Origin: Oecophyllibacter saccharovorans | GTDB lineage: Bacteria; Pseudomonadota; Alphaproteobacteria; Acetobacterales; Acetobacteraceae | NCBI RefSeq assembly: GCF_006542375.1 | Contig: NZ_CP038143.1 | Span: forward strand, 992,001 to 1,056,000 | Direction: 5' to 3' | DNA length: 64,000 bases | Shown here: in pieces, positions 3,161-58,264 of the stretch | Layout of the letters: each line of letters starts with the position of its first letter | Position numbering within the stretch: position 1 is the first letter of the stretch | Translations under genes and position numbers: made by a program | Notes under the pieces: model-generated | Seen by the model: the letters and a program-made list of their open reading frames with translations, nothing else | Databases searched by the model: none | Told to the model about the DNA's origin: nothing

Positions 3161-3508
3161 ATGCTTTTTGTGCTCAAGGCTGTACTTTCGGGCGTACTGA
3201 TAGCGCTGGTGGCAGGCGTTTCCCGGCGTTATCCCGGCGCAGGGGCTCTGATTGCCTCATTGCCGCTGATATCCGTGCTGGGCATGGTCTGGCTGTGGGT
3301 CGAAAAGCCGGACCGGCAACTGATGGAGACGCATGTCGGGGCAACCTTCTGGTACATCCTGCCTTCCCTGCCGATGTTTCTGCTGATTCCTCTCTGTCTG
3401 CGCCATGGCATGAATTTCTGGCTGGCCCTGGCCTGTGGCTGCCTGCTGACTGTGGTTCTGTATGTTCTTCTGGCCACTCTTGGTGCGCGTTGGGGGTTGA
3501 AGCGCTGA
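3161..3508 (+). CDS. DUF3147-like small membrane protein
   Basis: A 115-residue integral membrane protein with four hydrophobic segments (about residues 3-20, 27-46, 61-80 and 87-108), consistent with the DUF3147 family. The family signature GALIASLPLISVLGM is present after the first membrane span. Its ATG follows the epimerase stop with no gap, so translational coupling is likely, although a functional link to nucleotide-sugar metabolism is only inferred. No catalytic residues are evident. Small transporter or membrane chaperone-like roles are possible, and I assign no function. Confidence 0.75.
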   Translation: MLFVLKAVLSGVLIALVAGVSRRYPGAGALIASLPLISVLGMVWLWVEKPDRQLMETHVGATFWYILPSLPMFLLIPLCLRHGMNFWLALACGCLLTVVLYVLLATLGARWGLKR

Positions 3509-3577
3509 TTAGGCATGTCTCCTCACTGGTGCAAGTTCATGCATTCCGTTAGGGTAACGTTCTGATTTCAGGAGAAA

Positions 3578-3949
3578 ATGATGGTTGATGCCGATCCCGC
3601 CTGTCCGAAATGCCACTGTGCACATGCTTATCCTGACGGCGCCCATGGAGGCAGCCTGTGGGTCTGTCCGGAATGCGGCCATGAGTGGAATCCCGCTCTG
3701 GAGACGACTGACGCACAGGAGAATGGGGAAGGCGGCGTGCGGGATGCGGTCGGCAATCTGCTGGCAGATGGCGACAGTGTCACGGTGATCAAGGATCTCA
3801 AGATCAAGGGGAGTTCCCAGACCCTGAAGGCCGGAACGAAGGTCAAGAATATCCGGTTGAGCGATGGCGGCGGCGGTCATGACATCGCCTGCAAGATCCC
3901 CGGTGTCGGTGCCATGGACCTGAAATCGGAATTCGTCAGAAAGGCCTGA
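3578..3949 (+). CDS. yjdM: Zinc-ribbon YjdM/PhnA family protein
   Basis: A 123-residue protein with an N-terminal zinc ribbon, CPKC at about residues 9-12 and CPEC at about 29-32, and a C-terminal SH3-like KOW-type region ([25 protein letters not shown]). This is the YjdM (formerly PhnA) family, historically linked to alkylphosphonate loci by location but not required for phosphonate breakdown. Two ATGs sit side by side at 3578 and 3581. The AGGAG at 3570-3574 is better spaced for the second, so the real protein may be one residue shorter. It is a single gene with its own short upstream spacer. Confidence 0.9.
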
Positions 3950-3991
3950 TCCCGGCCCTGCGTTTCATCGGCGAGAGGAGAATCCATACTC

Positions 3992-4657
3992 ATGGATCCA
4001 GTCATGCAGGCGGTCATCGGCTTTGCGACCGCATGGGCCATCCTTATCCTCGCCCCTGGCCTGGATTTTATTTTCGTCCTGCGTACGTCATTGGGAGACG
4101 GGAAAAAGGCAGGCGTTGGGGCCGCGCTCGGCGTGGCACTCAGCATCGGCCTGTGGGGTGTGGCAGCGGCGTTCGGTCTGGCCAAGATCGTGGCCGTATC
4201 GCACCTGGCCTTCGAAATCCTGAAATGGGGCGGCGCGCTGTACCTGGCTTATCTCGGGGGCATGCTGCTTTTCAGGCCCCGTAATGTTCTGGTTGAAGAT
4301 GAGACCAAGGTCTCTCAGGAGCTGACGCGGGATCGGGCGTTGCCCTCCTCATTCTGGCTCTGGTTCCGGCGCGGCGCGGTGGTCAGCCTGCTCAACCCGC
4401 AGCTGGGCATTTTCGACCTGTCGGCCTATGCGCATGTGATGCCGCCGGACCTGGCCAATCCCGTCGCTTTCTGCCTGATGCTCACCGTGCTTCAGGTCGT
4501 GATCGTTCTGCCTTACCACCTGTTCGTAGCCCTGGTGGCCAATAAGGCAGCCGTGCTGCTCAACACGCCCTGGTTCGTCAATCTGCTGGACCGCCTTACC
4601 GGGTTGGTGTTCCTGTGGTTTGCCTACCAGCTCCTGCAGGCCCATCCGCCTGTCTGA
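3992..4657 (+). CDS. LysE-family amino acid/metabolite exporter
   Basis: A 221-residue inner-membrane protein with about six hydrophobic segments and the LysE/RhtB family opening GFATAWAILILAPGLDFIFVLRTSL, followed by the Gly-rich stretch GKKAGVGAALGVALS. Members export basic, neutral or hydrophobic amino acids or homoserine lactones by proton antiport. Substrate cannot be told from the sequence. A GAGGAG lies upstream of the ATG, a little farther than usual. The gene ends shortly before a perfect bidirectional terminator (4705-4741), which also serves the oppositely directed ohr gene. Confidence 0.9.
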   Translation: MDPVMQAVIGFATAWAILILAPGLDFIFVLRTSLGDGKKAGVGAALGVALSIGLWGVAAAFGLAKIVAVSHLAFEILKWGGALYLAYLGGMLLFRPRNVLVEDETKVSQELTRDRALPSSFWLWFRRGAVVSLLNPQLGIFDLSAYAHVMPPDLANPVAFCLMLTVLQVVIVLPYHLFVALVANKAAVLLNTPWFVNLLDRLTGLVFLWFAYQLLQAHPPV

Positions 4658-4704
4658 GCCGGTCTGTTATATGGGTATCCTGCCGACTGATAACTGACTG
4701 ACAG

Positions 4705-4741
4705 AAAAGCCGGTCTCTCTACAAAAGAGAGACCGGCTTTT
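4705..4741. terminator. Bidirectional intrinsic terminator
   Basis: A 16-bp perfect stem (4705-4720 against 4726-4741) with a 5-base loop. The stem core AGCCGGTCTCTCT is flanked by AAAA on one side and TTTT on the other, so it ends with a U-run in both directions. It lies between the convergent LysE (plus) and Ohr (minus) genes and can stop transcripts from both. Confidence 0.92.
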
Positions 4742-4780
4742 CAATTATCCCTGCGTGAGCCGGTTTTTCAGGTCCTGATA

Positions 4781-5206
4781 TCAGCTGGCCAGAGAGATGG
4801 TGGTGGAAATGTTGCCTTTGGTAGCATGGGCGTAGGGGCAGACGATTTCAGTCTTTTTCAGCAGATCCCGGGCTTCTTCAGCCGGCATGCCCGGCAGGGA
4901 GACAGAAAGGCTGACTTCAAGGCCGAATCCTCCTTCAGAGCGTGGTCCGATCCCCACTGTCGCCTCCACGGAGGTATCGGCGGGCAGAGTGATTTTCTCA
5001 TGCTGGGCCACGAATTTCATGGCGCCAAGAAAACAGGCAGCGTAACCGGCAGCGAAAAGCTGCTCGGGATTGTTGCCCTCGTCGTTGCCGCCGAGCTCTT
5101 TGGGCGTTCCCAGCTTGACCTTGAAACGTCCGTCCAGGGTTTCAGCGACACCGTCACGTCCGCCGGTGGCACGTGCGGTGGTTTTATAGACGACTTGAAT
5201 GGACAT
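4781..5206 (-). CDS. ohr: Organic hydroperoxide resistance protein
   Basis: A 141-residue thiol peroxidase of the OsmC/Ohr family that reduces organic hydroperoxides, normally using lipoylated partners. Both catalytic cysteines are present in their usual contexts, YAACFLGAM in the first half and EIVCPYAHAT near the C terminus, together with the NPEQLFAAGYA motif. I place the start at the ATG complementary to 5204-5206 because AGGAG lies about 8 bases upstream; a longer reading frame from 5251 would add 15 non-conserved residues. No OhrR-type repressor gene is adjacent. The 165 bases before opgH's end hold its promoter region. Confidence 0.95.
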   Translation of the reverse strand: MSIQVVYKTTARATGGRDGVAETLDGRFKVKLGTPKELGGNDEGNNPEQLFAAGYAACFLGAMKFVAQHEKITLPADTSVEATVGIGPRSEGGFGLEVSLSVSLPGMPAEEARDLLKKTEIVCPYAHATKGNISTTISLAS

Positions 5207-5370
5207 GGAGTGAATCTCCTGAAGGATTGGGGGTCTGAAACCCAGTAACAACCGGCTTGGGATCGTGCCGGAGGTGATAGGCTGCTGGAGATGAGCCTAG
5301 CGGGTAAACCCGTAAATGTCCCCCATGTTTTCAAGCCCTTCTTTCGTGTGCTTCTCTGCCTCCAACGAGA

Positions 5371-7533
5371 CTATTCCAGGGGTAGGGCGGCCAGCAGTTC
5401 CACCCCTTCCGCATTGGCCAGAACGGCGGATTTCTCTTTGGGAGTCAGGCGTTCCAGAGCGACCTTGAGCGATGTGCTTTCGCGCACTTTCAGCAGTCCG
5501 ACCAGCAGGGCCACGTCAATCGGATCGCCCGGCTCGCGCGGCGGGGGCAGGGCGTCCTCATGGGCGCGGCGGAGGGTGGCATTCTCCCGCAGCGCCAGGC
5601 TTGCCTCGAGAGCCGGGTCATGGTCGACATGCCCTTCCTCTTCCTCGGCCATTTTAATGATGCGCGGCGGGTGTGTTTCTTCGGGAATCAGCAGCAGTCC
5701 TGCCTTGCGCAGATCCTGTCCCATCGCGGTGCTGCCAGTGAAGGCCACCAGGGGAATGGCCAGAACAAGGCCGATCAGCACAGGCAGCATCCACAGGAAC
5801 AACGGCAGCGATACCGACCAGGCCGCCACGCTCAACGCCACGCCCAGGGCGCTGTAGATCCAGTAACGGTGCATCACTTCCTTGATCGAGACGCGCCCGT
5901 CATCGCGGTTCTGCGCTTTCCAGCCTGAATCGCGCCCCATGAGAATGGAGAGGATGCCCGATGTCTGGATCATCATGGCGATGGGCGCGATGAGACCGCC
6001 GATAAGCGTTTCAATCAGCACCGAAAGCGCCAACCGCCCGGCCCCTCCCGAGCCTTCGCGGGTGTGGCGGTCGAAACAGGCGGCGATATAGGCCAGCGCT
6101 TTGGGCGCCAGCAGGATCACCATCGTTCCGATAAACAGGTCCCGCGCCTGGATCGGGTCCACATGGGGCCAGTGGGGGAAGAGCATGCGTTTCGTGCCGA
6201 AATATTCCGGATGCGACAGCCCCGCCTGCAGGGAGATGAGAATACCGCAGAGCAGAAACAGCAGCCACAGAGGCGACATGACGTAAGAGCCGATGCCCAC
6301 CAGCATGTGGGAGCGGCTGATCCAGTGCAGGCCTTTGGTGGCCAGCAGGCGCCCGTGCTGCAGGTTTCCCTGGCACCAGCGACGGTCACGGATGGCGATG
6401 TCGGTGAGGGAGGGCGGGCTTTCTTCGTAGGAGCCGAACAGGCCAGGCACCATGTGAATGGCCCAGCCGCCGCGGCGCATCAGGGCGGCTTCCACGAAGT
6501 CATGGCTGAGAATGTGACCGCCGAAGGGGGGCTTGCCTGACAGATGCGGCAGCCCGGCCTGTTCGGCAAACGCACGGGTGCGGATCACGGCGTTGTGGCC
6601 CCAGTAATTGCCCTCCGAGCCATGCCACCAGGCGATGCCATGAGCGATCATAGGGCCGTAGATCCGCCCGGCGAACTGCTGCAGGCGGGCAAAAAGGGTG
6701 CGGCCTTCCACGATGACGGGCAGGCTCTGGATCAGCCCCACCTGGGGGTGTTTCTCCATCGCGCCGACCAGGCGCACGATCAGCCCGCCATCCATCAGGC
6801 TGTCGGCATCCAGGGTGAGCATGGTTTCATAAGCGCTGCCGAACTGGCGCACCCATTCGCCGATATTGCCGGCCTTGCGGTCGGTATTCTTCAATCGGTG
6901 GCGGTAATAGACATTCTGCGCCCAGGGTTCTCTGCACAGGTCGAGATAGGCTTTCTCTTCCTGGACCCAGAGGTCGGGATTGGTCGTGTCAGAGAGGATG
7001 AAGACGTCGAAAGCGCCCAGCTGACCGGTTGCTTCCAGACTGCGCAGCATGGCACGCAGATTGGCCATGATCTTGTCGGGCGGCTCATTATAGGTCGGCA
7101 GCAGGATGGCCGTGCGTTTTTCAAGCACAGGCAGGGGACCGTGGCGGTGAATGCCCAGCCCCAGCCCTCCGCGGCGGAGCAGGGAGACAAAACCTGCCAG
7201 TGCAGAGGTGAAGGACAGCGAGATCCAGAAACTCAGTATGGCGAACAGAATGAGGATGATCACCCCCAGGGTGCTCATGCCGAAAGAGTTGAAGACCCTG
7301 TTGAGCTTGTCGACGCTGAAAAGCGTCAGCGCCAGCGCACCGCCGAACACGAAAAGCCGCCGTGCCCACAGCCAGGCCGGGCGGGTTGGCAGCCTGCGGG
7401 GGTGGCGTCCGTGCAGATCCGGAGCGGCGTCCAGATTCTGCACCGGCATGGCCAGCGGCGCGTCAGGCGGCAGATAAGCGCGTGCACCAGGTGACGGAGA
7501 AGCGGGGGCGGGATGAGCAGTCGGATCGGTCAT
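5371..7533 (-). CDS. opgH: Glucans biosynthesis glucosyltransferase OpgH
   Basis: A 720-residue inner-membrane GT2 glucosyltransferase that builds the beta-1,2-linked backbone of osmoregulated periplasmic glucans from UDP-glucose. The N-terminal membrane spans lie around 55-120, the catalytic domain at about 140-400 and a second membrane block at about 400-640. Catalytic motifs are LDADS (241-245), HDFVEA (344-349) and RRWCQGN (384-390). It is shorter than E. coli OpgH (about 847 residues), mainly at the ends. Its ATG overlaps the opgG stop as ATGA, so the pair is translationally coupled, with opgG first. Assignment is firm. Confidence 0.95.
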   Translation of the reverse strand: MTDPTAHPAPASPSPGARAYLPPDAPLAMPVQNLDAAPDLHGRHPRRLPTRPAWLWARRLFVFGGALALTLFSVDKLNRVFNSFGMSTLGVIILILFAILSFWISLSFTSALAGFVSLLRRGGLGLGIHRHGPLPVLEKRTAILLPTYNEPPDKIMANLRAMLRSLEATGQLGAFDVFILSDTTNPDLWVQEEKAYLDLCREPWAQNVYYRHRLKNTDRKAGNIGEWVRQFGSAYETMLTLDADSLMDGGLIVRLVGAMEKHPQVGLIQSLPVIVEGRTLFARLQQFAGRIYGPMIAHGIAWWHGSEGNYWGHNAVIRTRAFAEQAGLPHLSGKPPFGGHILSHDFVEAALMRRGGWAIHMVPGLFGSYEESPPSLTDIAIRDRRWCQGNLQHGRLLATKGLHWISRSHMLVGIGSYVMSPLWLLFLLCGILISLQAGLSHPEYFGTKRMLFPHWPHVDPIQARDLFIGTMVILLAPKALAYIAACFDRHTREGSGGAGRLALSVLIETLIGGLIAPIAMMIQTSGILSILMGRDSGWKAQNRDDGRVSIKEVMHRYWIYSALGVALSVAAWSVSLPLFLWMLPVLIGLVLAIPLVAFTGSTAMGQDLRKAGLLLIPEETHPPRIIKMAEEEEGHVDHDPALEASLALRENATLRRAHEDALPPPREPGDPIDVALLVGLLKVRESTSLKVALERLTPKEKSAVLANAEGVELLAALPLE

Positions 7534-46960: not shown

Positions 46961-49900
46961 ATGTCCCTTTCGCGGTTTTTCATCGATCGCCCGGTTTTTG
47001 CCTGGGTGATCGGGATTATCATCATGCTCGTCGGCCTGGTTGCGGTCAAAACCATGCCGATCGCCCAGTATCCCAGCATCGCCCCGCCCATGATCGCCAT
47101 CGCGGTGGATGACCCGGGCGCTTCAGCCGAGACAGTCGACAACACGGTGGTGCGCCCGATCCTGCAGCAGATGTTCGGGCTTGATCATCTCGAATATCTG
47201 TCGGCGTCCTCTTATGGCAATGGTCATATGGAGATCGACCTTACCTTCGCGCAGGGCACCAACCCCGACATCGCGCAGGTCCAGGTGCAGAACAAGCTCC
47301 AGCTCGCCCAGCCACGCCTGCCGCCTGAAGTGGTGCAGCAGGGACTGAGCGTGACCAAGGCCGTCAAGAACTTCATGCTTGTGATCGGTTTCATCTCCAC
47401 TGACGGCAGCATGAGCGGACCCGATATCGCCGATTTCGTTGCCTCCAACGTCTCCGACCCGCTGTCGCGGGTTACCGGGGTGGGCGATCATCAGATCTTC
47501 GGCTCCGAATATGCCATGCGCATCTGGATGGATCCGGCCAAGCTTTATAATTATGCGCTCAGTGTCGGTGACGTGCAGCAGGCTGTTGCCGCCCAGAACA
47601 TTCAGGTGGCCTCTGGCGAGCTGGGCGGTCTGCCGGCCGTGAAGGGGATCGGCTTCGACGCAACGATCATCGGACCGACCCGCATGACTGACGTCGCCCA
47701 GTTCAAGAACATTCTCCTCAAGGTCCAGCAGGACGGCAGCCAGGTGCGCCTCAAGGATGTGGCCGAGGTGGAACTCGGGCCGCAGAACTACAATCTCACA
47801 TCTTTCTACAACAACCAGCCTGCCTCGGCCATGGCGCTCAAGCTGGCGCCCGGCGCCAACCAGCTGGCGACTGAAGCGGCTGTCCGCGCGCGCCTGCAGG
47901 CTCTGGAACGCTTCTTTCCGCCTGGGCTGAAGGTCACTTACGCTCTGGATACGGAACCCTTCATCATTCACTCGATTGATGAAGTCATCGAGACCCTGGT
48001 CATCGCGATCATCCTGGTCTCCATCGTCATGTTCGTCTTCCTGCAGAACTGGCGCGCGACGCTGATTCCCACCATTGCCGTGCCGATCGTCCTGCTGGGC
48101 ACCTTCGGCGTGCTCGACATTCTCGGCTATTCGATCAACACACTGACCATGCTTGCCATGGTTCTGGCCGTCGGCCTGCTGGTAGATGACGCGATCGTGG
48201 TGGTGGAAAATGTCGAACGCGTGATGACCGAGGAAGGCCTGCCGCCCAAGGCTGCAACGGGCAAGTCGATGGATGAGATCACCGGAGCCCTGGTCGGCAT
48301 CGTGCTCGTGCTGACGGCGGTGTTCCTGCCCATGGCCTTCTTCGGCGGGTCCACCGGCGTGATCTACAGGCAGTTCTCCGTCACCATCGTTGCGGCGATG
48401 TGGCTGTCGATCCTGGTTGCCACTACCCTGACACCGGCTCTCTGCGGCTCCCTGCTCAAGCCGGGCCAGCAGGGGTCGAGCTTCTGGGCTGCCCGGATGT
48501 TCGATCGTGGCTTTGAACGCCTGACGAATTTCTATGTTTTCGGTCTCAAGCGCCTGATCGCCCATCCCTATCTCAGCATGCTCTGCTTTGCGGGGCTGAC
48601 GGTCCTGACCGTTGTCCTGTTCACCCGCGTGCCCGGCGGCTTCCTGCCGGTTGAAGATCAGGGGCTGATCTTCGGCCAGGTCACGATGCCGCCCGGCGCG
48701 ACGCTTGAGCAGACCGCGAACGTGAACCGGAAGGTCGCTGCCTATATCCTCAAGACCTACCCCAAGGATGTCGAATCCGTCTTCAGCATGAACGGCTTCA
48801 ACTTCGCAGGCCAGGGACAGGGTGCAGGCGCGTTCTTCATCCGGCTCAAGCCCTGGTCGGAGCGGCCGGGCTACCGCAACAGCAGCATGTATCTCTCAGA
48901 TGAGATCATGAAACATTTCTGGCTGGATCCGCAGGCGCAGATCTATGCCATCAATCCCCCGGCCGTGCTGGAGCTGGGCAATGCGCAGGGCTTCGACCTG
49001 GAGCTGGAGGATAACGGCCATCTCGGTTATGACGCGCTGATTAAGGCACGCAACAGCCTGCTTGCCGCGGCAGCCAAGGACCCCAAGCTGATGGCGGTCC
49101 GGCCGATGGGGCTGGAGCCGGCGCCCCAATATGTCCTGAACATCGACCGTCAGAAAGCCAATGCCCAGGGCGTGGCCAACTCTGACATCAACACGACCAT
49201 CCAGGGCGCTCTGGCTTCCATCTACGTCAACCAGTTCCTGCGTGCCGGCCGTGTGAAGCAAGTGTACATCCAGGGCGTGGCCGATTCGCGTATGGTGCCG
49301 GTAGAGCTGCAGAAATGGTACATTCCCAACAAGCTGGGCAATATGGTGCCGATCAACACCTTCATAACCGGCGACTGGATCGTGGGTCCGCAGAAGGTGG
49401 AGAACTATAACGGTCTCAGCTCCTTCGAGATCCAGGGCCAGGGCGCGCCGGGCGTCAGCTCCGGCACAGCGATGCAGCAGATGGTGAAGCTGATGCAGAA
49501 CCTGCCGCGCGGCATCGGCTATGAATGGACCGGCATTTCCTATGAGCAGGTCGCCGCGGGTGCCTCGACAGGCACGCTTTATGCTTTTTCAGGCATCGTC
49601 ATCCTGCTCTGCCTGGCAGCGCTTTACGAAAACTGGGCCGTTCCCATCTCGGTGATGCTCGTTCTGCCCCTGAGCGTTCTGGGCGCCATCGGCGCCACCC
49701 TGGCACGCGGCTATGACAATGACGTGTATTTCCAGGTCGGCCTGCTGACCACGGTGGCGCTTTCAGTCAAGAACGCCATTCTGATCGTCGAGTTCGCCCA
49801 GGCTTTCTATGAGCAGGGCGACACGCTTGAACAGGCCGTGCTCAAGGCGGCCCATGAACGCCTGCGCCCGATTATCATGACCTCGGTTGCCTTCGTGTTC

Positions 49901-50185
49901 GGTGTGCTGCCGCTTGCCATCGCCAATGGCGCAGGCGCTGCGGCACGGCGGGCCATCGGCACCTGCGTGGTGGGCGGCATGCTTTCAGCCACCTTCCTGG
50001 CGATCTACTTCATTCCGGTCTTCTACGTCGTGGTGCTCAAGCTGTTCCGGGTGCAGCGCATCTCGGCCGTCCGGGCGCGCGAGGCCGAGGAGCTCAAGGA
50101 GGCGATGGCGCACAACAAGGCCAAGGCTGCCAAAGCCCAAAACGGGACGGCTGACGGCAGAACGGGCGGAGGAGCACAGGCATGA
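46961..50185 (+). CDS. RND multidrug efflux transporter (AcrB/MexB type)
   Basis: A 1074-residue proton-driven trimeric inner-membrane pump of the hydrophobe/amphiphile efflux family, with 12 membrane spans and two large periplasmic loops. The N terminus FFIDRPVFAWVIGIIIMLVG and the transmembrane-4 motif LLVDDAIVVVENVERV (Asp pair at about 409-410 for proton relay) are diagnostic. The C-terminal 45 residues are Lys, Ala and Gly-rich and longer than typical. Its stop overlaps the outer-membrane gene as ATGA. Substrate range cannot be read from the sequence. Confidence 0.95.
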   Translation: MSLSRFFIDRPVFAWVIGIIIMLVGLVAVKTMPIAQYPSIAPPMIAIAVDDPGASAETVDNTVVRPILQQMFGLDHLEYLSASSYGNGHMEIDLTFAQGTNPDIAQVQVQNKLQLAQPRLPPEVVQQGLSVTKAVKNFMLVIGFISTDGSMSGPDIADFVASNVSDPLSRVTGVGDHQIFGSEYAMRIWMDPAKLYNYALSVGDVQQAVAAQNIQVASGELGGLPAVKGIGFDATIIGPTRMTDVAQFKNILLKVQQDGSQVRLKDVAEVELGPQNYNLTSFYNNQPASAMALKLAPGANQLATEAAVRARLQALERFFPPGLKVTYALDTEPFIIHSIDEVIETLVIAIILVSIVMFVFLQNWRATLIPTIAVPIVLLGTFGVLDILGYSINTLTMLAMVLAVGLLVDDAIVVVENVERVMTEEGLPPKAATGKSMDEITGALVGIVLVLTAVFLPMAFFGGSTGVIYRQFSVTIVAAMWLSILVATTLTPALCGSLLKPGQQGSSFWAARMFDRGFERLTNFYVFGLKRLIAHPYLSMLCFAGLTVLTVVLFTRVPGGFLPVEDQGLIFGQVTMPPGATLEQTANVNRKVAAYILKTYPKDVESVFSMNGFNFAGQGQGAGAFFIRLKPWSERPGYRNSSMYLSDEIMKHFWLDPQAQIYAINPPAVLELGNAQGFDLELEDNGHLGYDALIKARNSLLAAAAKDPKLMAVRPMGLEPAPQYVLNIDRQKANAQGVANSDINTTIQGALASIYVNQFLRAGRVKQVYIQGVADSRMVPVELQKWYIPNKLGNMVPINTFITGDWIVGPQKVENYNGLSSFEIQGQGAPGVSSGTAMQQMVKLMQNLPRGIGYEWTGISYEQVAAGASTGTLYAFSGIVILLCLAALYENWAVPISVMLVLPLSVLGAIGATLARGYDNDVYFQVGLLTTVALSVKNAILIVEFAQAFYEQGDTLEQAVLKAAHERLRPIIMTSVAFVFGVLPLAIANGAGAAARRAIGTCVVGGMLSATFLAIYFIPVFYVVVLKLFRVQRISAVRAREAEELKEAMAHNKAKAAKAQNGTADGRTGGGAQA

Positions 50186-51942
50186 ACGCGATGAGCCGAA
50201 CCGGAAAAGGAAGCCCTTTCCGCCTGACTGCCGTTACTCTGGGTGGGGCTGCAACGCTGCTTCTTTCAGCCTGCAATTTCGCCCCGCATTACAAGCAGCC
50301 TGTGACCGGCGTGCAGTCGAGCTGGCCCAGTGACACCTATACGCCGACGGTTCAGAGCAAGCTGAAAGTGTCGGATCTGGGATGGGAGGAATTCTTTACC
50401 GACCCAAGGCTGAAAAAGCTGATCTCCCTGGCGCTCAACACCAACCGGGACCTGGCAAGCCAGTTTGCCGCCATCGTACAGGCCCGCGGGCAGTATGAGA
50501 TGCAGAACTCCGCCCTCTTCCCCAATATCAGCACCGGGGCAGGAGCGATGTATCAGGATCCCTCCACCAATGCGGGTTTCTCCTTCGCGCCAGGCAGTGA
50601 CAGCGGCCATAACGGGCAGCAGATGATCAAGCTGCTGCATTTCTACCAGACGTCGATCGGGTTCTCGTCTTATGAGATCGATCTCTGGGGACGGATCCGC
50701 AATCTCTCCAAAGCCCAGAAAGAGGAGACGCTGAGCAGCTACGACAATCTGCGCAATCTCTGGATATCCACCATTTCCCAGCTGGCTTCGACCTATATCC
50801 AGTGGCTGGCCGATGTCGAGATGCTCAAGGTCGCCCAGGCGCGCCAGAAGAACCAGGAGGAAACCTACCGGCTCACAAAGCTCTCCTTTGTGAACGGGGA
50901 AGAAAATGCGCTGACCATGGCGCAGATCGCAAGCCAGATCGACCAGGCACGCACGGATGTTTCCGTGCAGATCGGCGCCATCGGGCGTGACGTGCATGCG
51001 CTGCAGCTGCTGGTGGGCCAGCCCCTGCCTGCCGACCTGCCACCGCCGGCCCCCTTCGGTCATCAGACAGTGCTTGCTGATCTGCCGGCCGGCCTGCCTT
51101 CCGACATGCTGCAGCAGCGCCCCGATATCCGTGAGGCCGAGCACAAGCTGCGTGCGGCCAACGCCAATATCGGTGCTGCGCGTGCCGCCTTCTATCCCCG
51201 TTTCACCCTGACGGCCTCGGAAGGGATTTCCTCGCTGCAGTTCAAGAAACTGTTCACCAATATGTCGGAAACCTGGGGTCTTTCCCCGAGTGTCAGCATC
51301 CCGCTTCTGACCTGGGGCCAGAATTCCGGCAATCTTCACACGGCCAAGGCAGCCCAGGCTCAGGCTGTGGCTCAGTACCAGAAAACCGTGCAGAAGGCCT
51401 TCAAGGAAGTTTCCGACGCTCTGACCTCGCGCGAGACCTACAAGCTGCAGGATGAAAGCATGGCGCGCGTGGTTGGAAACACGAAGCAGGCCTATGACCT
51501 GGCTTATCTGCGTTTCCGCGAAGGGATAGACAATTATCTGGCCACGCTGGAAGAGGAACGCCAGCTGTTCATGGCCCGGCAGTTCCACATCTACGTGCAG
51601 GGCGCGCGGTACCAGAACATGGTGACGCTTTACCGCGCCCTGGGCGGCGGCTGGAGACGTTACACTCCTGGTACGCCTGTCACCGCATCGGCAACCTTTG
51701 TTGCCGGCACGCCGACCGGTGTGGCTCAGGCCCAGCAGCAGCTTCAGGAACGGGCCCAGCTCCAGGCGCAGGCGCTGCAGGCAGACGAAAATGCGCCGCC
51801 AGCCGCTCATCCCGGCCAGCTTCCCTCTGTCTCGCATACCATGGCGGCCGACAGCCGGGGCCGTGCTCAGGGCGTGCAGGTGCAGGGGGCGGCAGAGCGG
51901 GCGGCCACCATCCGCGGGCCCGTGCCTGACAGTCCGGACTGA
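50182..51942 (+). CDS. Outer-membrane efflux lipoprotein (OprM/NodT type)
   Basis: A 586-residue outer-membrane channel. It has a lipoprotein signal with lipobox LLSAC (Cys about 31), then the two OEP repeats with FTDPRLKKLISLALNTNRDL (first) and QQRPDIREAEHKLRAANANIGAARAAFYP (second). The C-terminal 100 residues after about 490 are Gln and Ala-rich and not part of the usual fold. The ATG overlaps the RND gene. It completes the pump operon and, being the only TolC-like channel in the window, could in principle also serve the type I secretion system, though nothing shows this. Confidence 0.93.
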   Translation: MNAMSRTGKGSPFRLTAVTLGGAATLLLSACNFAPHYKQPVTGVQSSWPSDTYTPTVQSKLKVSDLGWEEFFTDPRLKKLISLALNTNRDLASQFAAIVQARGQYEMQNSALFPNISTGAGAMYQDPSTNAGFSFAPGSDSGHNGQQMIKLLHFYQTSIGFSSYEIDLWGRIRNLSKAQKEETLSSYDNLRNLWISTISQLASTYIQWLADVEMLKVAQARQKNQEETYRLTKLSFVNGEENALTMAQIASQIDQARTDVSVQIGAIGRDVHALQLLVGQPLPADLPPPAPFGHQTVLADLPAGLPSDMLQQRPDIREAEHKLRAANANIGAARAAFYPRFTLTASEGISSLQFKKLFTNMSETWGLSPSVSIPLLTWGQNSGNLHTAKAAQAQAVAQYQKTVQKAFKEVSDALTSRETYKLQDESMARVVGNTKQAYDLAYLRFREGIDNYLATLEEERQLFMARQFHIYVQGARYQNMVTLYRALGGGWRRYTPGTPVTASATFVAGTPTGVAQAQQQLQERAQLQAQALQADENAPPAAHPGQLPSVSHTMAADSRGRAQGVQVQGAAERAATIRGPVPDSPD

Positions 51943-52074
51943 AGATGGCAGGACCTGAGGAATATTTGCTTTCCGGGAAGGGAGAGCGGTAAGTAAGGGA
52001 CAGCGAGGTCTGCTGAAAGCGTGGCAGCACGCCGGAACCAGGCACTGAAGAAAAGAGTGGGAAAGAAGCAGAAG

Positions 52075-52527
52075 ATGCCGTCATTCGAACCGTTGCGTTT
52101 GATCCAGATCCAGCCCAGGCGCGGCAGGCGGCTTCTGGCGCTGCTCTGTGCAGTCGTGGGTATAGGGAGCGGCATGGCGCTGCACATGCAGAAAGCCCAG
52201 GCGGCTCCTGGGCCCCAGACCTTCGGCGACCGTGATGCGAAGAAGCCTCCTTCTATGCACCAGCTTTTCAGATCTTCCCAGCTGCCCAAGACCTATGCTG
52301 ATTTCAGCATGTTTCACTTCGTGCCCCGTGGCTCCATCATCGTCGAGCAGCCGGAACGCGGGCGGCTGATCTTCAGAAGCCGCAAAACCGGTCAGCCTAA
52401 TGGCTATGCGGAGCTGAAGGGGGATTCCGTGCTGTATTACGACCCGGCCGGCAGACCCATCCGCCTGCAGCACCTGACCCCTGAGGAAATGGATCGCTGG
52501 AACAAGAACGCCCTCGCCAACCGCTGA
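52075..52527 (+). CDS. Small exported protein of unknown function
   Basis: A 150-residue protein that I do not recognise. A signal segment (about 16-36, LLALLCAVVGIGSGMALHMQ, cut near AQA) is followed by a compact region with DFSMFHFVPRGSIIVEQPER and KGDSVLYYDPAGRPIRLQHL. AGAAG lies just upstream of the ATG; an in-frame GTG at 52021 would add 18 basic residues. It lies 132 bases downstream of the efflux operon, same strand, and faces the thiamine operon tail-to-tail with 53 bases between. A role is not assignable. Confidence 0.65.
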   Translation: MPSFEPLRLIQIQPRRGRRLLALLCAVVGIGSGMALHMQKAQAAPGPQTFGDRDAKKPPSMHQLFRSSQLPKTYADFSMFHFVPRGSIIVEQPERGRLIFRSRKTGQPNGYAELKGDSVLYYDPAGRPIRLQHLTPEEMDRWNKNALANR

Positions 52528-52580: not shown

Positions 52581-53201
52581 TCAGTGATTGAAAGGCTCTC
52601 GGCCACTTCCGGTGCGAAGTTCAGGTCTCAAGTCGCACCATTGCCGCCAGCCATAAACGGCCATGAGAGTGAAGCAGGCGTAAAGAAGCGCTGTCAGGTC
52701 GAGATGGCGGCTTGCGAACAGTCCCACGTAAACCGAATCGACCACGATCCAGAGCAGCCAGCTGGCCCGGTAGCGACAGGCCATCCAGAACTGACCCAGA
52801 AGACTGGCGCTGCTGAGCAGAGCATCCAGAAAGGGCAGAGGGTCATCAGTGTGACGCAGGATCAGTGCCCATAGCCAGGCCCCGGCTAGGGTCACTCCGA
52901 GCGCGCTCAAAACCTTTGGCCAGGTGAGGGAACGGATGGCAAGGGAGGGAATGCGGTCAGATGCCTGTTTTCTTTCCCGGGCCCAGCTGTGCCAGCCATG
53001 CAGGATGCCGAGACAGAAAAAACCCTGAAGCGTCATGTCCGCATAGAGGCGTGCGTTGAAAAACACCAGTGCGTAAAGCCCACAGGCGATCAGGCTGACT
53101 GGCCAACCGGCCAGGGCGCGGCGTGCGGTCAGCCATACCCCGGCCAGACTGGCCGCGACGGCTGTGCTTTCAAGAAGGAATTCCGGCGTGACTGCCATCA
53201 C
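52581..53201 (-). CDS. PnuC-family transporter, probable thiamine transporter PnuT
   Basis: A 206-residue inner-membrane protein with about seven hydrophobic spans and PnuC family phrases: LAGVWLTARRALAGWPVSLI, YADMTLQGFFCLGILHGWHSW and WLLWIVVDSVYVGLFASRHL with TALLYACFTLMAVYGWRQW. PnuC proteins move vitamins by facilitated diffusion, with the substrate trapped by a kinase. PnuC itself takes nicotinamide riboside and PnuT thiamine. The TPP riboswitch at the head of this operon argues for thiamine. Its ATG overlaps the kinase gene stop as ATGA, linking transport to phosphorylation. It is the last gene of the three-gene operon. Confidence 0.88.
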   Translation of the reverse strand: MMAVTPEFLLESTAVAASLAGVWLTARRALAGWPVSLIACGLYALVFFNARLYADMTLQGFFCLGILHGWHSWARERKQASDRIPSLAIRSLTWPKVLSALGVTLAGAWLWALILRHTDDPLPFLDALLSSASLLGQFWMACRYRASWLLWIVVDSVYVGLFASRHLDLTALLYACFTLMAVYGWRQWCDLRPELRTGSGREPFNH

Positions 53202-54463
53202 CCTGCGCCTCCCGAAGGGTTGGCGCTGACCGCTTCAATGAGTTTCTGCCCTGCGGGGCTTTCAAACCAGCGGGCATGGCCGAGCAGGTAACCTGACCAC
53301 ACATCCCGCCTGGCAGTGGGCAGGTCATGCAGCAGGGCCGCATAATAGGCCAGCTCCGTGAGGGCGAATTGGACATGGACCAGAGGCAGGAAACGCCCTG
53401 TCAGCTGCCGTTCGACAAGGGTGCGGGGTCGGATGGCCTCATAACCGGCCAGAAAGGCATGCAACTGGTCCCAGGCGACAGGGTCGCGCCCCATGTTCAT
53501 CCAGCGTATGAAGCTGCGCTCGACAGCGACAGCGAGATCGAAAGGCGCGCTGGTATGGCCACTGAGGCCGAAATCGAAGACTTCGCACACCTCTTCTTTT
53601 CCCGGCACCATACCAGGCCTCCAGGAGAGGTTGGAGCCGTGCCAGTCCCCGTGCCCCCACAGGGGCTGCACGTCACCAAGATTGGGGCGCAGCGCCTGAT
53701 GGGCGGGGGTGAGAGCCGGCAGCAGGCTGCGGCGCCAGTCATCCTCCATGCCTGCGCCCATGCCAAGCTGTGCCAGGCTTTCCAGCAGGCCCGGCTGGGT
53801 GGGAAGCCAGGTGGTCAGGCCGGCTTCCAGGTCAGGCATCTGCACGGCCCGGCCACCGGACATCAGCAGCACGTCGCCGTCAGACGCGTTGAAGCCTGTG
53901 CTGGCGAGATGAAGGCGGGCCAGCATGCGGCCAGCGGAAGCGGCGTGGATTGGGGAGCGGTAGGGTTCCCAGGACAGGGTGTGACGGTAGAGATCCTCCC
54001 CCCTGAAGGCCGGAAAGACTTCATAGAGATTGCCGCCTTCCTGCTCGGTGGTGCCGGAAAACCGGCTGGAAGCCTGAGCAGAGTCGGCAGGCGTGGTTAT
54101 GCGCGTCAGCGGCAGGGGAATGTGGAGGTCCTGCTGGGCACTGGCCATCAGGTGGCGCATGAAAGCGTGTTCGGTTTCAAGCCGGCTGGCTGAGCGCAGG
54201 CGGTGGTCATGACGCTTGAGAAAGACGCGTTCAGGCAGAGAGCCGGGCGGCCTGAAACCTGGCAGGGGCGCAACCTCAAACAGGGCACCGGCCGAAAAGG
54301 GACGCGCACTCTGCCACAGCGGCGGTAACCGGGGAACGAGGCCGAAACCCGCCAGGACCCGCCGGGCTTCGGCCCCGGTAATCGGCGGCCAGTCCCGCGG
54401 GCGCTCTGCGTCAGCCAGACCCAGGGCCAGGGTGTGAGAGGAGCCGGGTACAGCCTGGGTCAT
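53198..54463 (-). CDS. Phosphotransferase (aminoglycoside/choline kinase fold), candidate thiamine kinase
   Basis: A 421-residue enzyme of the APH/choline kinase fold. The catalytic loop is WGHGDWHGSNLSW (about 270-282, with the Asp and Asn of the HxDxxxxN motif) and the metal-binding motif is VFDFGLSG (about 294-301). The N-terminal lobe has VFLKRHDH as a likely ATP-lysine region. Between a TPP-riboswitch-controlled receptor and a PnuC-type transporter the most economical role is phosphorylating imported thiamine. ATG 54463 starts 8 bases after the receptor stop; the longer frame from 54580 overlaps that gene by over 100 bases. Other small-molecule substrates remain possible. Confidence 0.8.
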   Translation of the reverse strand: MTQAVPGSSHTLALGLADAERPRDWPPITGAEARRVLAGFGLVPRLPPLWQSARPFSAGALFEVAPLPGFRPPGSLPERVFLKRHDHRLRSASRLETEHAFMRHLMASAQQDLHIPLPLTRITTPADSAQASSRFSGTTEQEGGNLYEVFPAFRGEDLYRHTLSWEPYRSPIHAASAGRMLARLHLASTGFNASDGDVLLMSGGRAVQMPDLEAGLTTWLPTQPGLLESLAQLGMGAGMEDDWRRSLLPALTPAHQALRPNLGDVQPLWGHGDWHGSNLSWRPGMVPGKEEVCEVFDFGLSGHTSAPFDLAVAVERSFIRWMNMGRDPVAWDQLHAFLAGYEAIRPRTLVERQLTGRFLPLVHVQFALTELAYYAALLHDLPTARRDVWSGYLLGHARWFESPAGQKLIEAVSANPSGGAG

Positions 54464-54470
54464 CAGGCGC

Positions 54471-56906
54471 TCAGAAGCCGGTGGAGGCGGTGAACAGCAC
54501 TGCAAAACCGCCGCCGATGTAGAACTTGGCCGGGTTGGCGGCAATGGTGGTGCCGTGCAGCCCGCGGGTGGCGTGGGCATTGGTGCCTGGCGTGCCGACG
54601 CCTGAGAGATAACGCTGGTTGGAAAGATTGAGGAAATTAAGGCGCAGCTCCGGGCGTTTCAGGGTGGCATCGCGGAAGAGGGCGACATTGCTGAAACGGT
54701 AGCCAAGGCTCAGATCCGCCGTCATGTAGGCCGGCATTTTCTCGTCATTCATGAAGGTGGCGTACTGGCTGCCGGTGTAGCGAGCGGTGACCATGCTGAA
54801 GAAATGTCCGTCATCATAGCGCAGCCCTGCCGCGCCTGAGAAATGCGGGCTGCGTATTGCCGTCTTGCCGCGCGTGGGAAGCCAGTCCCCGTTGACCGGC
54901 AGATTGCCGTCCATGGTGGCATGCAGGTATTCAAAGGACAGGTAAGGGCTGAGATGGTGCCAGGGCCGCGTTCCCAGCTCGATATCGACGCCGCGGGTGG
55001 TCTGTCCTCCGGCATTGATGGTGGAGGAGATGTTCTGCACGCCGTCACGGGTGATCAGGGTTTCAATCAGGCGATTGGTGAAGTTGTAGTTGAAGAAGGT
55101 GATGCTCCCCACCAGCCAGTCACCTGTGCGCCGGTAACCCAGTTCCTCGGTAATGGAATATTCGTTCTTCAGGCCGCGCGAATCTCCGGGCGCATAATAG
55201 GCCGTGACAGCAGGGGCGCGGAAATTGGTGGTGGCATTGAGAAAGATCTGGTCTTTGGGCGTGATCTTCCACCGCAGCCCGAAACGTGGCAGCGGCTCGG
55301 ACGTGTTGCTGCCGACATGATAGGGGTAGCCCGAGGCGGCGTCAGGAAGGTTGTTGGTGCCGTTTCTGCTGAGCATGATCTCCTTGAACCCCGCATCAAT
55401 GAGCAGGCGGTTGTTGAACAGGGAGATGTGGTCTCCGGCGTAAAGGGCATTGACCTGCGCAATGCTGTGGATATCCCAGGCAAGGTATTTTTCCGTCCCG
55501 CCCCGGCCGTCCGGCTGCAGCACCTTGCCGTGCCGGCCTGTCGCCCAGATATCGGGCGTGGCGCCGGTAGCGCTGACGCGGGAATAGGGCTGGGTCTCGT
55601 GGTCATCTGAATAATCGTACCAGTAGCCCAGAAAGAAGTCGTTCCACTTCCAGCGTGCGTGGAGCTCGGAGGTGAAGCCGGCCCGGTAGCTGCGCTGCAG
55701 ATAATCGCCGCGTAGCACGGGCGTGGCCGTGGGATTGCCGGCAAGCCCTGCATCTTCCGCTGTCGTGCCGGAGGGCCAGTTGCCGTAGGCGCCTTGGGCG
55801 TAAGGGGTGATGTCGAGCGAGAGGCGGTCGTTTGAAGTCAGGGCGAAATGCATGGGCGCCCCCAGGTAGAGCGTCTCCTCGGGATCGCGCCACAAGCGCC
55901 AGTAACGCGCTCCCTGCTGGGGGTCTGAAGTATCGAAATGCCGCGCCAGGTGGTTGGGGCCGTGGATGTTGTAGAGTTTCCAGGCCGTCAGGGTGGTTTT
56001 GGGATAATAGGCCGTTGTGGTGCGGTTCCAGGACCCGAGCAGAGCGACGCGCGACTGCCCCCACTCCTTGAGGAACTTGAAATCGATGTGCTGTCGTTCA
56101 TTGTTGCCCGGTCCATGCCAGGCATCGGCGCGCGTGTTGGAATAGGACACGAAACCGCGCAGACCGCTGTTGCCGATCTCGCCGGTTTCAAGGCGGATGA
56201 AACCGCGCCGGGTGGCATAAGAGCCGTAGGACATGGCCACCATGCCCCCTGCCTTGAAGGAGGGGTCGAGGTATTTCATGGTGTTCAGCCCGCCCGCGGC
56301 ATCAATGACAGGGCTGTCGAGATCAGGAGATCCCTGCTGCAGGGCGACCTGGCTGTAATTTTCCGAATCCGCGAACTGGCTGGGCGTGGCGCCGTAGGAA
56401 GCCACGTCGCTCATGGGCATGCCTTCAAGCACGTAGCCCAGCGCGTCGCCATTGAGGCCGCGGATGGAGATGTTGGTCTGCGGTGACAGCCCGAAAGGAT
56501 CGGAAGTGGCGACATTGGCGCCCGGCACGAGGTCCAGCAGCTGGAAAGCATTGGCTGTGGGCGACTGAATGTCGATGTAAGTGCGGCTTACCACGCTGCG
56601 TTCCTGCGTGCCCTGCTGGGGTGTGATCAGCCCCCCTGCGACGGCAGTCAGCTCAGGTTTGGCCCGCAAGTTGATCCGCTCAACACCGTGTGCAGTCACG
56701 TCATGAACACCCCGTTGTGCACTCCTGCCTGTATTTCTGGTGGAGGCAGCTGGCGTAGCAGGTGCAGTGGGAGAGGCGGTCGCATGGCCTGCAGGCGCGG
56801 TCATGAGCAGTTCAGTGGCCAGGCCCAGACTGCCCAGAAGTTTGCCGGCCGGTTTCCATGGCCGCAGCTTGGGCGGAAACCCTGTAGAGAAAGATAATGC
56901 AGACAT
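54471..56906 (-). CDS. TonB-dependent outer-membrane receptor, candidate thiamine receptor
   Basis: An 811-residue TonB-dependent transporter. A signal (about 1-43, ending AGHATA) and a linker precede a plug domain (about 95-215, with AFQLLDLVPGANVATSDP and TNISIRGLNGDALGYVLEGM) and a 22-strand barrel (about 220-811) ending in the aromatic residue Phe (ASTGF). The TPP riboswitch lies 155 bases upstream, so it should be made when thiamine pyrophosphate is low. The start has GAGGTGA about 6 bases upstream. It is the first gene of the operon with the kinase and the PnuC-type transporter. The ligand is inferred from regulation and was not read from binding residues. Confidence 0.9.
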   Translation of the reverse strand: MSALSFSTGFPPKLRPWKPAGKLLGSLGLATELLMTAPAGHATASPTAPATPAASTRNTGRSAQRGVHDVTAHGVERINLRAKPELTAVAGGLITPQQGTQERSVVSRTYIDIQSPTANAFQLLDLVPGANVATSDPFGLSPQTNISIRGLNGDALGYVLEGMPMSDVASYGATPSQFADSENYSQVALQQGSPDLDSPVIDAAGGLNTMKYLDPSFKAGGMVAMSYGSYATRRGFIRLETGEIGNSGLRGFVSYSNTRADAWHGPGNNERQHIDFKFLKEWGQSRVALLGSWNRTTTAYYPKTTLTAWKLYNIHGPNHLARHFDTSDPQQGARYWRLWRDPEETLYLGAPMHFALTSNDRLSLDITPYAQGAYGNWPSGTTAEDAGLAGNPTATPVLRGDYLQRSYRAGFTSELHARWKWNDFFLGYWYDYSDDHETQPYSRVSATGATPDIWATGRHGKVLQPDGRGGTEKYLAWDIHSIAQVNALYAGDHISLFNNRLLIDAGFKEIMLSRNGTNNLPDAASGYPYHVGSNTSEPLPRFGLRWKITPKDQIFLNATTNFRAPAVTAYYAPGDSRGLKNEYSITEELGYRRTGDWLVGSITFFNYNFTNRLIETLITRDGVQNISSTINAGGQTTRGVDIELGTRPWHHLSPYLSFEYLHATMDGNLPVNGDWLPTRGKTAIRSPHFSGAAGLRYDDGHFFSMVTARYTGSQYATFMNDEKMPAYMTADLSLGYRFSNVALFRDATLKRPELRLNFLNLSNQRYLSGVGTPGTNAHATRGLHGTTIAANPAKFYIGGGFAVLFTASTGF

Positions 56907-57061
56907 GAATCTTCACCTCGGTCTTTTCGCCCCGGCCGGGTAAGCCAAGGGCAATCACAGGGAAGATCCGGTAATGATGGACGGCAGTTCAGGGAACGCT
57001 TTCAGGGGCCTTAAGGTGCCGGGGCACCGACTAGCTGCTTTGCGTAAGCGCTCGGTTATTC

Positions 57062-57150
57062 CTGTCCCTTCGCCGGTATGAGCCGGATCAGGTTCAAAGG
57101 GTCCGGCCTGGTGACCGTCTCAGCCTGGCCAATGCCAGACACCCCTCGGA
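57062..57150 (-). ncRNA. TPP riboswitch (THI element)
   Basis: On the minus strand the aptamer's conserved parts appear in order: GGGGTGTCTGGC, CTGAGA, ACCCTTTGAACCTGATC, then CTCATACCGGCGAAGGGA. These match the thiamine pyrophosphate riboswitch pattern (CUGAGA and ACCUGAUC...GCGAAGGGA cores). It sits about 155 bases before the TonB receptor start, leaving room for an expression platform; a compact GC hairpin (GGTGCCCCGGCACC) lies about 30 bases after it, and the receptor's ribosome site GAGGTGA is a possible sequestration target. Binding of TPP should switch the operon off. Confidence 0.93.
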
Positions 57151-57478
57151 ACGCCAAAAACCTACTACACGTGCCGCAGGCCTGTCCATTGCGGGTGGGG
57201 CATGGCACGTGCGTTCTGCCTGCCCCCGTGTCTCTTCAGGGCCGCTTGAGAGGGGGCAGGCCGTGGGGGCCGGTTCTGCCGCTCTTGCATGCAGGGGGAA
57301 AGAAACGATAATTTCGCTTTTCTGCTGTTACCCCTAGACCTGTAGTACCCTCAGACCTGCGCCTGCTTTGTCTGACGGTTCCGCAGGGGGTGCTGCAATC
57401 CGGTCTCCTTCAGGAGCGTCCTCCGGTGCAGCTCTGACAGAGCCGGTTCATGAAGTCATCCAGAGGATCTCTGAGCGC
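57151..57478. other. Divergent spacer between the riboswitch and rpe
   Basis: About 330 bases holding the promoters for the thiamine operon (minus) and rpe (plus). A GC-rich stretch (57160-57300) is followed by AT-richer sequence (57300-57345, CGATAATTTCGCTTTTCTG) that could hold a plus-strand promoter. An in-frame TTG at 57368 could extend rpe upstream, but the ribosome site favours 57479. Confidence 0.45.
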
Positions 57479-58264
57479 ATGCCACAATCCCCAGCTGTCA
57501 GCTCCCGTTCCCTGTCCGCACAGGTGCCTGAAGCTGCGGCCGGTAAACCGCTCATTGCGCCAAGCCTGTTATCGGCAGATTTCTCCGATCTGCGCCGGGA
57601 GATGGAAACGGTTGCCACGGCGCCATGGTTGCATCTGGATGTGATGGACGGGCATTTCGTGCCCAATATTTCTTTCGGCATGCCTGTCATCAAGGCGTTG
57701 CGGCCCCATAGCAAAGCCTTTTTTGATGCGCATCTGATGGTTTCACCGGTCGATCCCCATCTGGACGCCTTGGCAGAGGCTGGGGTTGACCAGATGACGG
57801 TCCATGTCGAGGGAAACTGGCATCTCAACCGGACCCTGCAACGGATTGCAGCACTTGGCTGCAAAGTGGGCGTGGCCCTCTGCCCGGCCACCCCGCCCGA
57901 AGTGCTGGGAGAGGTGCTGGAACTGGTGGATACGATTCTCGTCATGACCGTCAATCCAGGCTTTGGCGGCCAGACTTTCATGCCGGGTCAGCTGCCCAAG
58001 ATCAGGCGTCTGGCGCAGATGATCGATGAGAATGAAGAACGCACCGGACGGCGGATTCTCCTGGGGGTCGATGGTGGTATCAATCTCCAGACGGCCCCGC
58101 TGGTGACGGCTGCAGGGGCCCGGCTGCTGGTGGCAGGCTCGTCTGTTTTCGGCCAGAAGGACCGCCCGGCCACCATTGCGGCCCTGCAGGCAGCCGCCTG
58201 TGGGGGGGAGGAGGGCGGCAGAAGCGTTGAGGACGTTTCGGCCCGCTCGCCCTCAATACGCTGA
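57479..58264 (+). CDS. rpe: Ribulose-phosphate 3-epimerase
   Basis: A 261-residue TIM-barrel enzyme that interconverts ribulose 5-phosphate and xylulose 5-phosphate in the pentose phosphate pathway, which is central in acetic acid bacteria. Motifs are APSLLSADFSDL (about 27-38), LDVMDGHFVPNISFG (about 53-67) with the metal-binding His and Asp, VNPGFGGQTF and GVDGGINLQT. I chose ATG 57479 since AGAGGA lies about 11 bases upstream; the first 22 residues are nonetheless extra compared with E. coli Rpe. The next gene starts 7 bases after its stop, suggesting an operon. Confidence 0.95.
   Translation: MPQSPAVSSRSLSAQVPEAAAGKPLIAPSLLSADFSDLRREMETVATAPWLHLDVMDGHFVPNISFGMPVIKALRPHSKAFFDAHLMVSPVDPHLDALAEAGVDQMTVHVEGNWHLNRTLQRIAALGCKVGVALCPATPPEVLGEVLELVDTILVMTVNPGFGGQTFMPGQLPKIRRLAQMIDENEERTGRRILLGVDGGINLQTAPLVTAAGARLLVAGSSVFGQKDRPATIAALQAAACGGEEGGRSVEDVSARSPSIR

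Follow-up and report, generated by a model that had tools for sequence, protein, structure and literature searches.

We propose that three genes on the minus strand of the window, by which we mean the whole 64 kb stretch of DNA that was analysed, very probably constitute a thiamine capture operon in which a TonB-dependent receptor, a PnuT-type channel and a kinase making thiamine monophosphate act together, with ThiL completing the synthesis of TPP. When TPP is scarce the riboswitch ahead of these genes would permit their expression, the receptor would bring thiamine over the outer membrane and the PnuC-type protein, acting as PnuT, would equilibrate it across the inner membrane. The APH-fold kinase would then turn thiamine into thiamine monophosphate that is trapped inside, and ThiL, which is encoded elsewhere, would convert this product to TPP, which may in turn shut the operon down. 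The operon is most likely of the OMthi-PnuT type, and its kinase would be the third kind of thiamine kinase, non-orthologous to the others. It is also likely, at a somewhat lower level of confidence than for the operon as a whole, that it represents a third, previously unrecognised thiamine kinase family that has no sequence relationship to ThiK or TPK, that occurs in alpha-, beta- and gammaproteobacteria nearly always linked to a TonB receptor and a Pnu-type channel, and that forms the sole entry from environmental B1 to TPP in acetic acid bacteria of insects and flowers in which thiamine synthesis is lost. What we observe of this capture operon is its aptamer, its gene order, the conservation of that order and the gene content of the genomes, while how TPP regulates it, what each of the three proteins binds and what the kinase makes are predictions. 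The interpretation has the support of independent genomic evidence.

The sequence-only reading had placed a minus-strand TPP aptamer ahead of genes for a TonB receptor, an APH-fold kinase and a PnuC-type transporter, and this layout is borne out by an RF00059 match of 71.3 bits together with Pfam matches for the three genes. The TPP riboswitch aptamer (THI element) lies at 57047..57156 on the minus strand, where cmscan of the 64 kb window aligns it from 57156 to 57047 with positions 1-105 of the 105 in the model (gathering cut-off 54.3 bits, E 4.8e-12); the riboswitch extends six bases beyond the end originally given for it. This same aptamer scores 93.4 bits with model R1, a covariance model that was made from 20 family aptamers with that of the window among them. 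RF00059 is the sole gathering-level Rfam match across the window, and just one TPP riboswitch match is present in the entire genome (1.94 Mb in 2 contigs, 100% complete, Acetobacteraceae). TPP riboswitches regulate thiamine genes in response to TPP. Between the aptamer and the receptor start there is a leader of 140 bases (56907..57046, minus strand) in which a purine-rich AGGTGAAG can be read by eye directly before the receptor ATG. A terminator scan found no intrinsic-terminator-like site in this leader, folding of 271 nt of leader sequence was no better than that of shuffled sequences (z -0.40), and a promoter scan gave just two weak sites on the minus strand, both within the receptor gene.

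The receptor gene (54471..56906, minus strand, 811 aa) encodes a TonB-dependent outer-membrane receptor with both a plug domain (PF07715, E 3e-8) and a beta-barrel (PF00593, E 5.9e-30), for which we predict an OMthi-like role. The predicted thiamine kinase of 421 aa follows at 53198..54463 on the same strand, with its most likely ATG start 8 bp past the receptor stop and an open frame that reaches up to 54580. The last gene (52581..53201, minus strand, 206 aa) encodes a PnuC/PnuT-type facilitator that matches PF04973 (NMN_transporter, E 9.8e-47), is homologous to the solved PnuC structure 4qtn (E 7.6e-13), and is thus a Pnu-type transporter. Its start is either GTG 53201 or ATG 53198. The kinase stop TGA (53200-53198) is consequently shared as GTGA with the GTG at 53201-53199 or as TGATG with the ATG at 53198, which corrects an earlier description of this overlap as ATGA.

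Several lines of evidence agree that the kinase belongs to the APH fold. It scores 57.8 bits against PF01636 (APH; cut-off 23.2 bits, E 1.8e-15), and residues K83, E98, H271, D273, N278 and D297, which we take to be the usual APH catalytic set with its HxDxxxxN motif and downstream D, are invariant in all 22 sequences of the kinase family alignment. An AlphaFold model (pLDDT 87.3, pTM 0.89) predicts this same fold. A structure search with the model returned three nearly tied closest solved structures, namely a homoserine kinase (2ppq, Z 24.5, rmsd 4.2 over 308 residues), an amicoumacin kinase (6sum, Z 23.8, rmsd 4.1 over 311 residues) and an N-acetylhexosamine kinase (4ocv, Z 23.5, rmsd 4.2 over 330 residues). 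The model thus speaks to the probable fold of the kinase and not to its substrate. A single-sequence phmmer search of the PDB with the kinase gave no match and the family profile was needed to obtain matches to 1zyl and 6sui; this profile also matches the homoserine kinase of the window's genome with a probability of 97%.

Assignment of the kinase to enzyme families that have established models failed in each case. When the family profile was compared with E. coli ThiK, hhalign aligned 42 columns around the HGD motif region at a probability of 1%, a comparison in which ThiK was entered as one sequence and sensitivity was therefore reduced. The NCBIfam ThiK models score E. coli ThiK at 338 and 554 bits and leave the kinase unmatched at E<1, as does the thiamine pyrophosphokinase model TIGR01378. 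The NCBIfam equivalog models for ThrB-type homoserine kinase give it 28 bits versus a cut-off of 271 (PRK05231) and 20.9 versus one of 255.9 (thrB_alt). Thus, the enzyme would have a predicted ThiK-like function without recognisable membership of the ThiK family. The window's genome contains three APH-fold genes: the operon kinase, a homoserine kinase (351.6 bits versus a cut-off of 271) that by our reading adjoins an ispH-like gene, and a UbiB-like protein that scores under that model's cut-off. The operon kinase is the only APH-fold candidate for a thiamine kinase among them.

Conservation of the three-gene order behind TPP aptamers, which had been put forward as a check, was searched for and found. 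Among 150 Acetobacteraceae genomes the kinase occurs in 24 and PF04973 also in 24 (23 above cut-off), with both together in 20. A TPP riboswitch is present at the locus in 9 of the 24 kinase genomes. It lies ahead of the receptor in the window's genome, G032, G066, G100, G117 and G135, and between kinase and receptor in G049, G079 and G127, the last of which has a locus split across two contigs. These latter three genomes also have an ABC permease-like gene just upstream of the kinase (PF00528 in G079, by clustering in the others) and an NMT1/THI5-like gene after the receptor (PF09084 in G049 and G079, by clustering in G127).

A wider scan of one genome per species, covering 84,980 species, gave 434 relatives of the kinase from which the best 80 were kept. 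Because these 80 loci are related to each other and were picked for likeness to the query, they cannot be counted as independent cases. They span alpha-, beta- and gammaproteobacteria and include Gluconobacter, Acetobacter, Saccharibacter, Bombella, Asaia, Brytella, Acidomonas, Zymomonas, Burkholderia, Paraburkholderia, Caballeronia, Pseudomonas, Rhodanobacter, Fulvimonas and Oleiagrimonas, among others. On the same strand and within 5.5 kb of the kinase there is a PnuC gene in 79 of the best 80, a TonB receptor in 77, a TPP riboswitch in 41, an NMT1/THI5-like gene in 9 and a rhodanese in 7. The receptor-kinase-PnuC order is found in 56 of these 80 loci; 31 of them are behind a TPP riboswitch and 25 are without one, including two (L105 and L109) in which the contig stops before the leader. 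Ten further loci exhibit a kinase-[TPP]-receptor-PnuC order (Rhodanobacter type), six have the order receptor-NMT1-PnuC-kinase-rhodanese, and the remaining eight have other orders. Rhodanese and NMT1-like genes join the module in loci of the Burkholderia type.

Distribution of the riboswitch is less uniform than that of the genes. On a kinase tree of 92 rows (the 80 loci, 11 family loci and the window), made by a quick method with many long branches and with the window's row on a branch of 1.15, the switch labels need four changes, and riboswitch coupling is therefore a property of clades in two arrangements and not 41 independent events. No TPP riboswitch is seen in 39 of the best 80 loci, among them all those of Acetobacter, Asaia, Zymomonas and the Burkholderiales as well as the Pseudomonas locus. 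In these loci neither Rfam nor model R1 detected a convincing TPP aptamer that might be hidden or degenerate, and a search for the two core motifs ahead of homologous receptors likewise found no convincing aptamer. The Pnu operon of these groups may be constitutive or under control of a protein regulator. Additionally, the Rhodanobacter-type switch lies downstream of the kinase and therefore cannot control it. These 39 loci without a switch and the 10 of 80 with a switch downstream of the kinase count against reading the module as a capture operon.

The strongest argument for a thiamine kinase is a gap in the thiamine pathway. One evenly drawn set of 150 Acetobacteraceae genomes was searched for TPK, ThiL, ThiC and ThiE, and ThiD (TIGR00097) was searched for in 14 chosen genomes. 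ThiL (TIGR01379) is present in 142 of the 150 at E<=1e-30 and scores 286.3 bits in the window's genome, while TPK (TIGR01378) occurs in one of the 150 (G040 only) and has no match anywhere in the window's genome. ThiC (PF01964) is found in 108 of the 150 and ThiE (TIGR00693) in 141 at E<=0.001; neither was found in the window's genome, where the ThiD model matches only in part, at 25 bits and within a frame of 527 aa. The window's genome thus has no visible de novo route to thiamine monophosphate and no TPK, yet it has kept ThiL. Since ThiL uses thiamine monophosphate, another enzyme must monophosphorylate imported thiamine, and the capture operon is the one route to TPP that can be seen in this bacterium.

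This gap is not confined to one genome. The same gap is present in G032 (ThiE best E 3.7e-4, ThiD 18.8 bits partial) and in G135 (no ThiE, ThiD 36.5 bits partial), both of which are at least 99% complete, are without ThiC and TPK, and retain ThiL. Nearly the same gap is present in G079 (94% complete; ThiE 8.8e-11, ThiD 9e-6). Both ThiC and a convincing ThiE are missing from six of the 150 genomes: those four, which all have the kinase, and the poor assemblies G039 (87% complete, in 1240 contigs) and G144 (66% complete), where no kinase was found. If thiamine is the compound that is imported, the window's genome, G032 and G135 must thus possess a thiamine kinase. Many genomes with the kinase are ThiC-positive, and there a thiamine kinase is non-essential; this counts against the capture reading, as do the two poor assemblies. 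PnuT is said to move thiamine by facilitated diffusion, and trapping by phosphorylation is therefore to be expected. The earlier proposal of receptor uptake, PnuT-like diffusion and trapping by phosphorylation thus agrees with the genomic evidence and is strengthened by the pathway gap and the presence of ThiL. Its description of the operon as "complete" is slightly too strong, as formation of the cofactor also needs ThiL from elsewhere in the genome.

The same gene content bears on what is imported. It is conceivable, albeit unlikely, that the operon serves the uptake of a precursor or degradation product of thiamine, either the pyrimidine HMP or the thiazole alcohol, which the kinase would phosphorylate in the manner of ThiD or ThiM. 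An NMT1/THI5-like gene adjoins the kinase in the nine loci noted among the best 80 as well as in three further Acetobacteraceae, seven of these 80 have a rhodanese nearby, and ThiXYZ-type systems are given for HMP, and under the name ThiXYZ2 for thiamine as well, in PMC6593275. However, the window's genome, G032 and G135 lack a convincing ThiE to join the two halves of thiamine and a convincing ThiD to provide HMP-PP, so precursors would be useless to them. Conversely, G029 and G115 keep ThiD and ThiE and have PnuC at the same syntenic place without the kinase; in G029 a TPP riboswitch precedes this PnuC.

Slightly less probable still is that TPP or thiamine monophosphate enters directly via an unseen system and that the kinase acts on something other than thiamine. 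Its fold is indeed common to kinases of many substrates, but an unrelated substrate is difficult to reconcile with PnuC near 79 and a TPP riboswitch near 41 of the best 80 kinase genes, and were TPP itself to enter there would be no need to keep ThiL.

Features of the PnuC-type protein raise the prospect of nicotinamide riboside salvage, in which PnuC would genuinely transport nicotinamide riboside and the kinase would phosphorylate that compound. We regard this as improbable. The protein does clear the TIGR01528 equivalog cut-off (84.4 versus 42.45 bits), and about half of the best 80 loci are without a TPP riboswitch. Against this are the TPP riboswitch that is present here, the NMT1/THI5-like neighbours and a replacement in a conserved motif: the PnuC of the window has WxxWxxxD, as do 98 of 103 family PnuC rows, in which some genes are counted twice, whereas 4qtn and E. 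coli PnuC, both annotated as nicotinamide riboside transporters, have WxxWxxxN with N at the position of the D. In this comparison with two nicotinamide riboside PnuCs only, the D for N replacement appears to fit a ligand other than nicotinamide riboside. To our knowledge, all characterised members of the APH fold transfer a single phosphate. It is thus very doubtful that the kinase transfers pyrophosphate to make TPP from thiamine in one step, as a substitute for TPK (Tnr3), even though it holds the operon place that tnr3 has beside pnuT in Bacteroides (PMC5613172), as the ThiL that the window's genome and 142 of the 150 family genomes have kept would then be needless.

We thus retain a thiamine capture operon with a thiamine kinase as our preferred reading. 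A thiamine kinase is needed wherever ThiL is present without ThiE and TPK, and the standard family models detect none there. If our assignment is true, B1 auxotrophy and salvage could be annotated correctly in acetic acid bacteria that include insect and flower symbionts and vinegar strains, with the same gain for Burkholderia- and Rhodanobacter-type bacteria. It would also constitute a third, independently evolved solution to one reaction, located in an operon whose substrate can be read from its riboswitch.

Comparison with known systems indicates that the new part of this operon is the kinase, probably a new thiamine kinase that is non-orthologous to the known ones, as the OMthi-PnuT-type arrangement is already known. 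Judged by titles and abstract openings, no paper in the open-access library searched describes a thiamine kinase of the APH fold that is encoded in a Pnu operon under a TPP riboswitch. A published table for Gluconobacter oxydans 621H gives one TPP riboswitch, ahead of thiC, while we find one ahead of the receptor in G. oxydans NBRC 14819 (68.8 bits); the strain record differs from 621H, so an omission from the table is not proven. ThrB-type homoserine kinase, amicoumacin kinase and YihE have their fold in common with the operon kinase, but they show 13-18% identity in alignments with it and differ in substrate, and the window's genome encodes a separate homoserine kinase of its own. ThiK (YcfN) of E. 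coli shares the predicted reaction from thiamine to thiamine monophosphate and the APH-like HxDxxxxN motif. Unlike ThiK, which has 274 aa, the operon kinase has 421 aa, is encoded in a TPP-switched operon and has no detectable homology to ThiK beyond the motif. Tnr3 is a thiamine pyrophosphokinase. In Bacteroides, OMthi, PnuT and Tnr3 are under TPP riboswitches, and transporter transcripts shifted little with thiamine (Costliow and Degnan 2017, PMC5613172), which is a warning against assuming strong regulation. The Bacteroidetes OMthi-PnuT-Tnr3 system has in common with the present operon a TPP riboswitch, a TonB-dependent receptor, a Pnu-type transporter and a thiamine-phosphorylating enzyme, the latter predicted here. 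The two differ in that the Bacteroidetes enzyme is Tnr3, which forms TPP, whereas here an APH-fold kinase takes its place in a genome without TPK, and ThiL must therefore finish TPP synthesis.

Among the 150 Acetobacteraceae genomes searched, PnuC genes also occur apart from the kinase. For example, in genome G029 (locus L084, G029:C1:1320000-1334000) a TPP riboswitch followed by a tandem pair of PnuC genes (6107-7401) occupies the operon's syntenic position with neither receptor nor kinase beside it, and G115 carries a single PnuC gene at that position (L085). Since ThiC is missing while ThiD and ThiE are retained in both genomes, these organisms may salvage HMP, the pyrimidine precursor of thiamine, rather than thiamine itself. 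At a further locus that is without the kinase (L086 of G048, 2504-7188), a TonB receptor and PnuC accompany a 495-aa protein that has no Pfam match, and this receptor and transporter possibly serve a different ligand. A thiamine pyrophosphokinase match was found in only one of the 150 family genomes (G040:C1:379549-380136), with no such match in the congeneric G121.

Other loci exhibit interrupted reading frames. The receptor and kinase frames are both fragmented in G125 (L082, 4155-7740) and the receptor frame is split in G135 (L068, 6282-8631), which could be a result of either gene decay or assembly errors.

The placement of the riboswitch also varies. In 10 Rhodanobacter/Lysobacteraceae-type loci (a subset of L158-L174; e.g. 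L161:7001-8249) it is located between kinase and receptor, so that the kinase, which remains adjacent to the riboswitch, is outside its control. Gluconobacter wancherniae (L100) is the sole Gluconobacter locus examined with no TPP riboswitch match upstream of the receptor.

In the window, the operon is convergent with a small protein gene (52021-52527, plus strand) that has neither a Pfam nor an NCBIfam match and whose homologues hold the same position in several small-genome relatives. Immediately past the operon's end there are, by reading, putative RND-type efflux pump and outer-membrane efflux channel genes (46961-51942, plus strand). Divergent from the operon is rpe (57368-58264, plus strand; TIGR01163, 238.9 bits), coding for ribulose-phosphate 3-epimerase of the pentose phosphate pathway, a pathway whose transketolase uses TPP. 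Outside the window, Paraburkholderia/Burkholderia and Pseudomonas kinase loci (L143:5278-9012, L157:6027-11934) contain an NMT1/THI5-like gene and, in 7 of the 80 best loci among 434 kinase relatives, a rhodanese gene close to kinase and PnuC.
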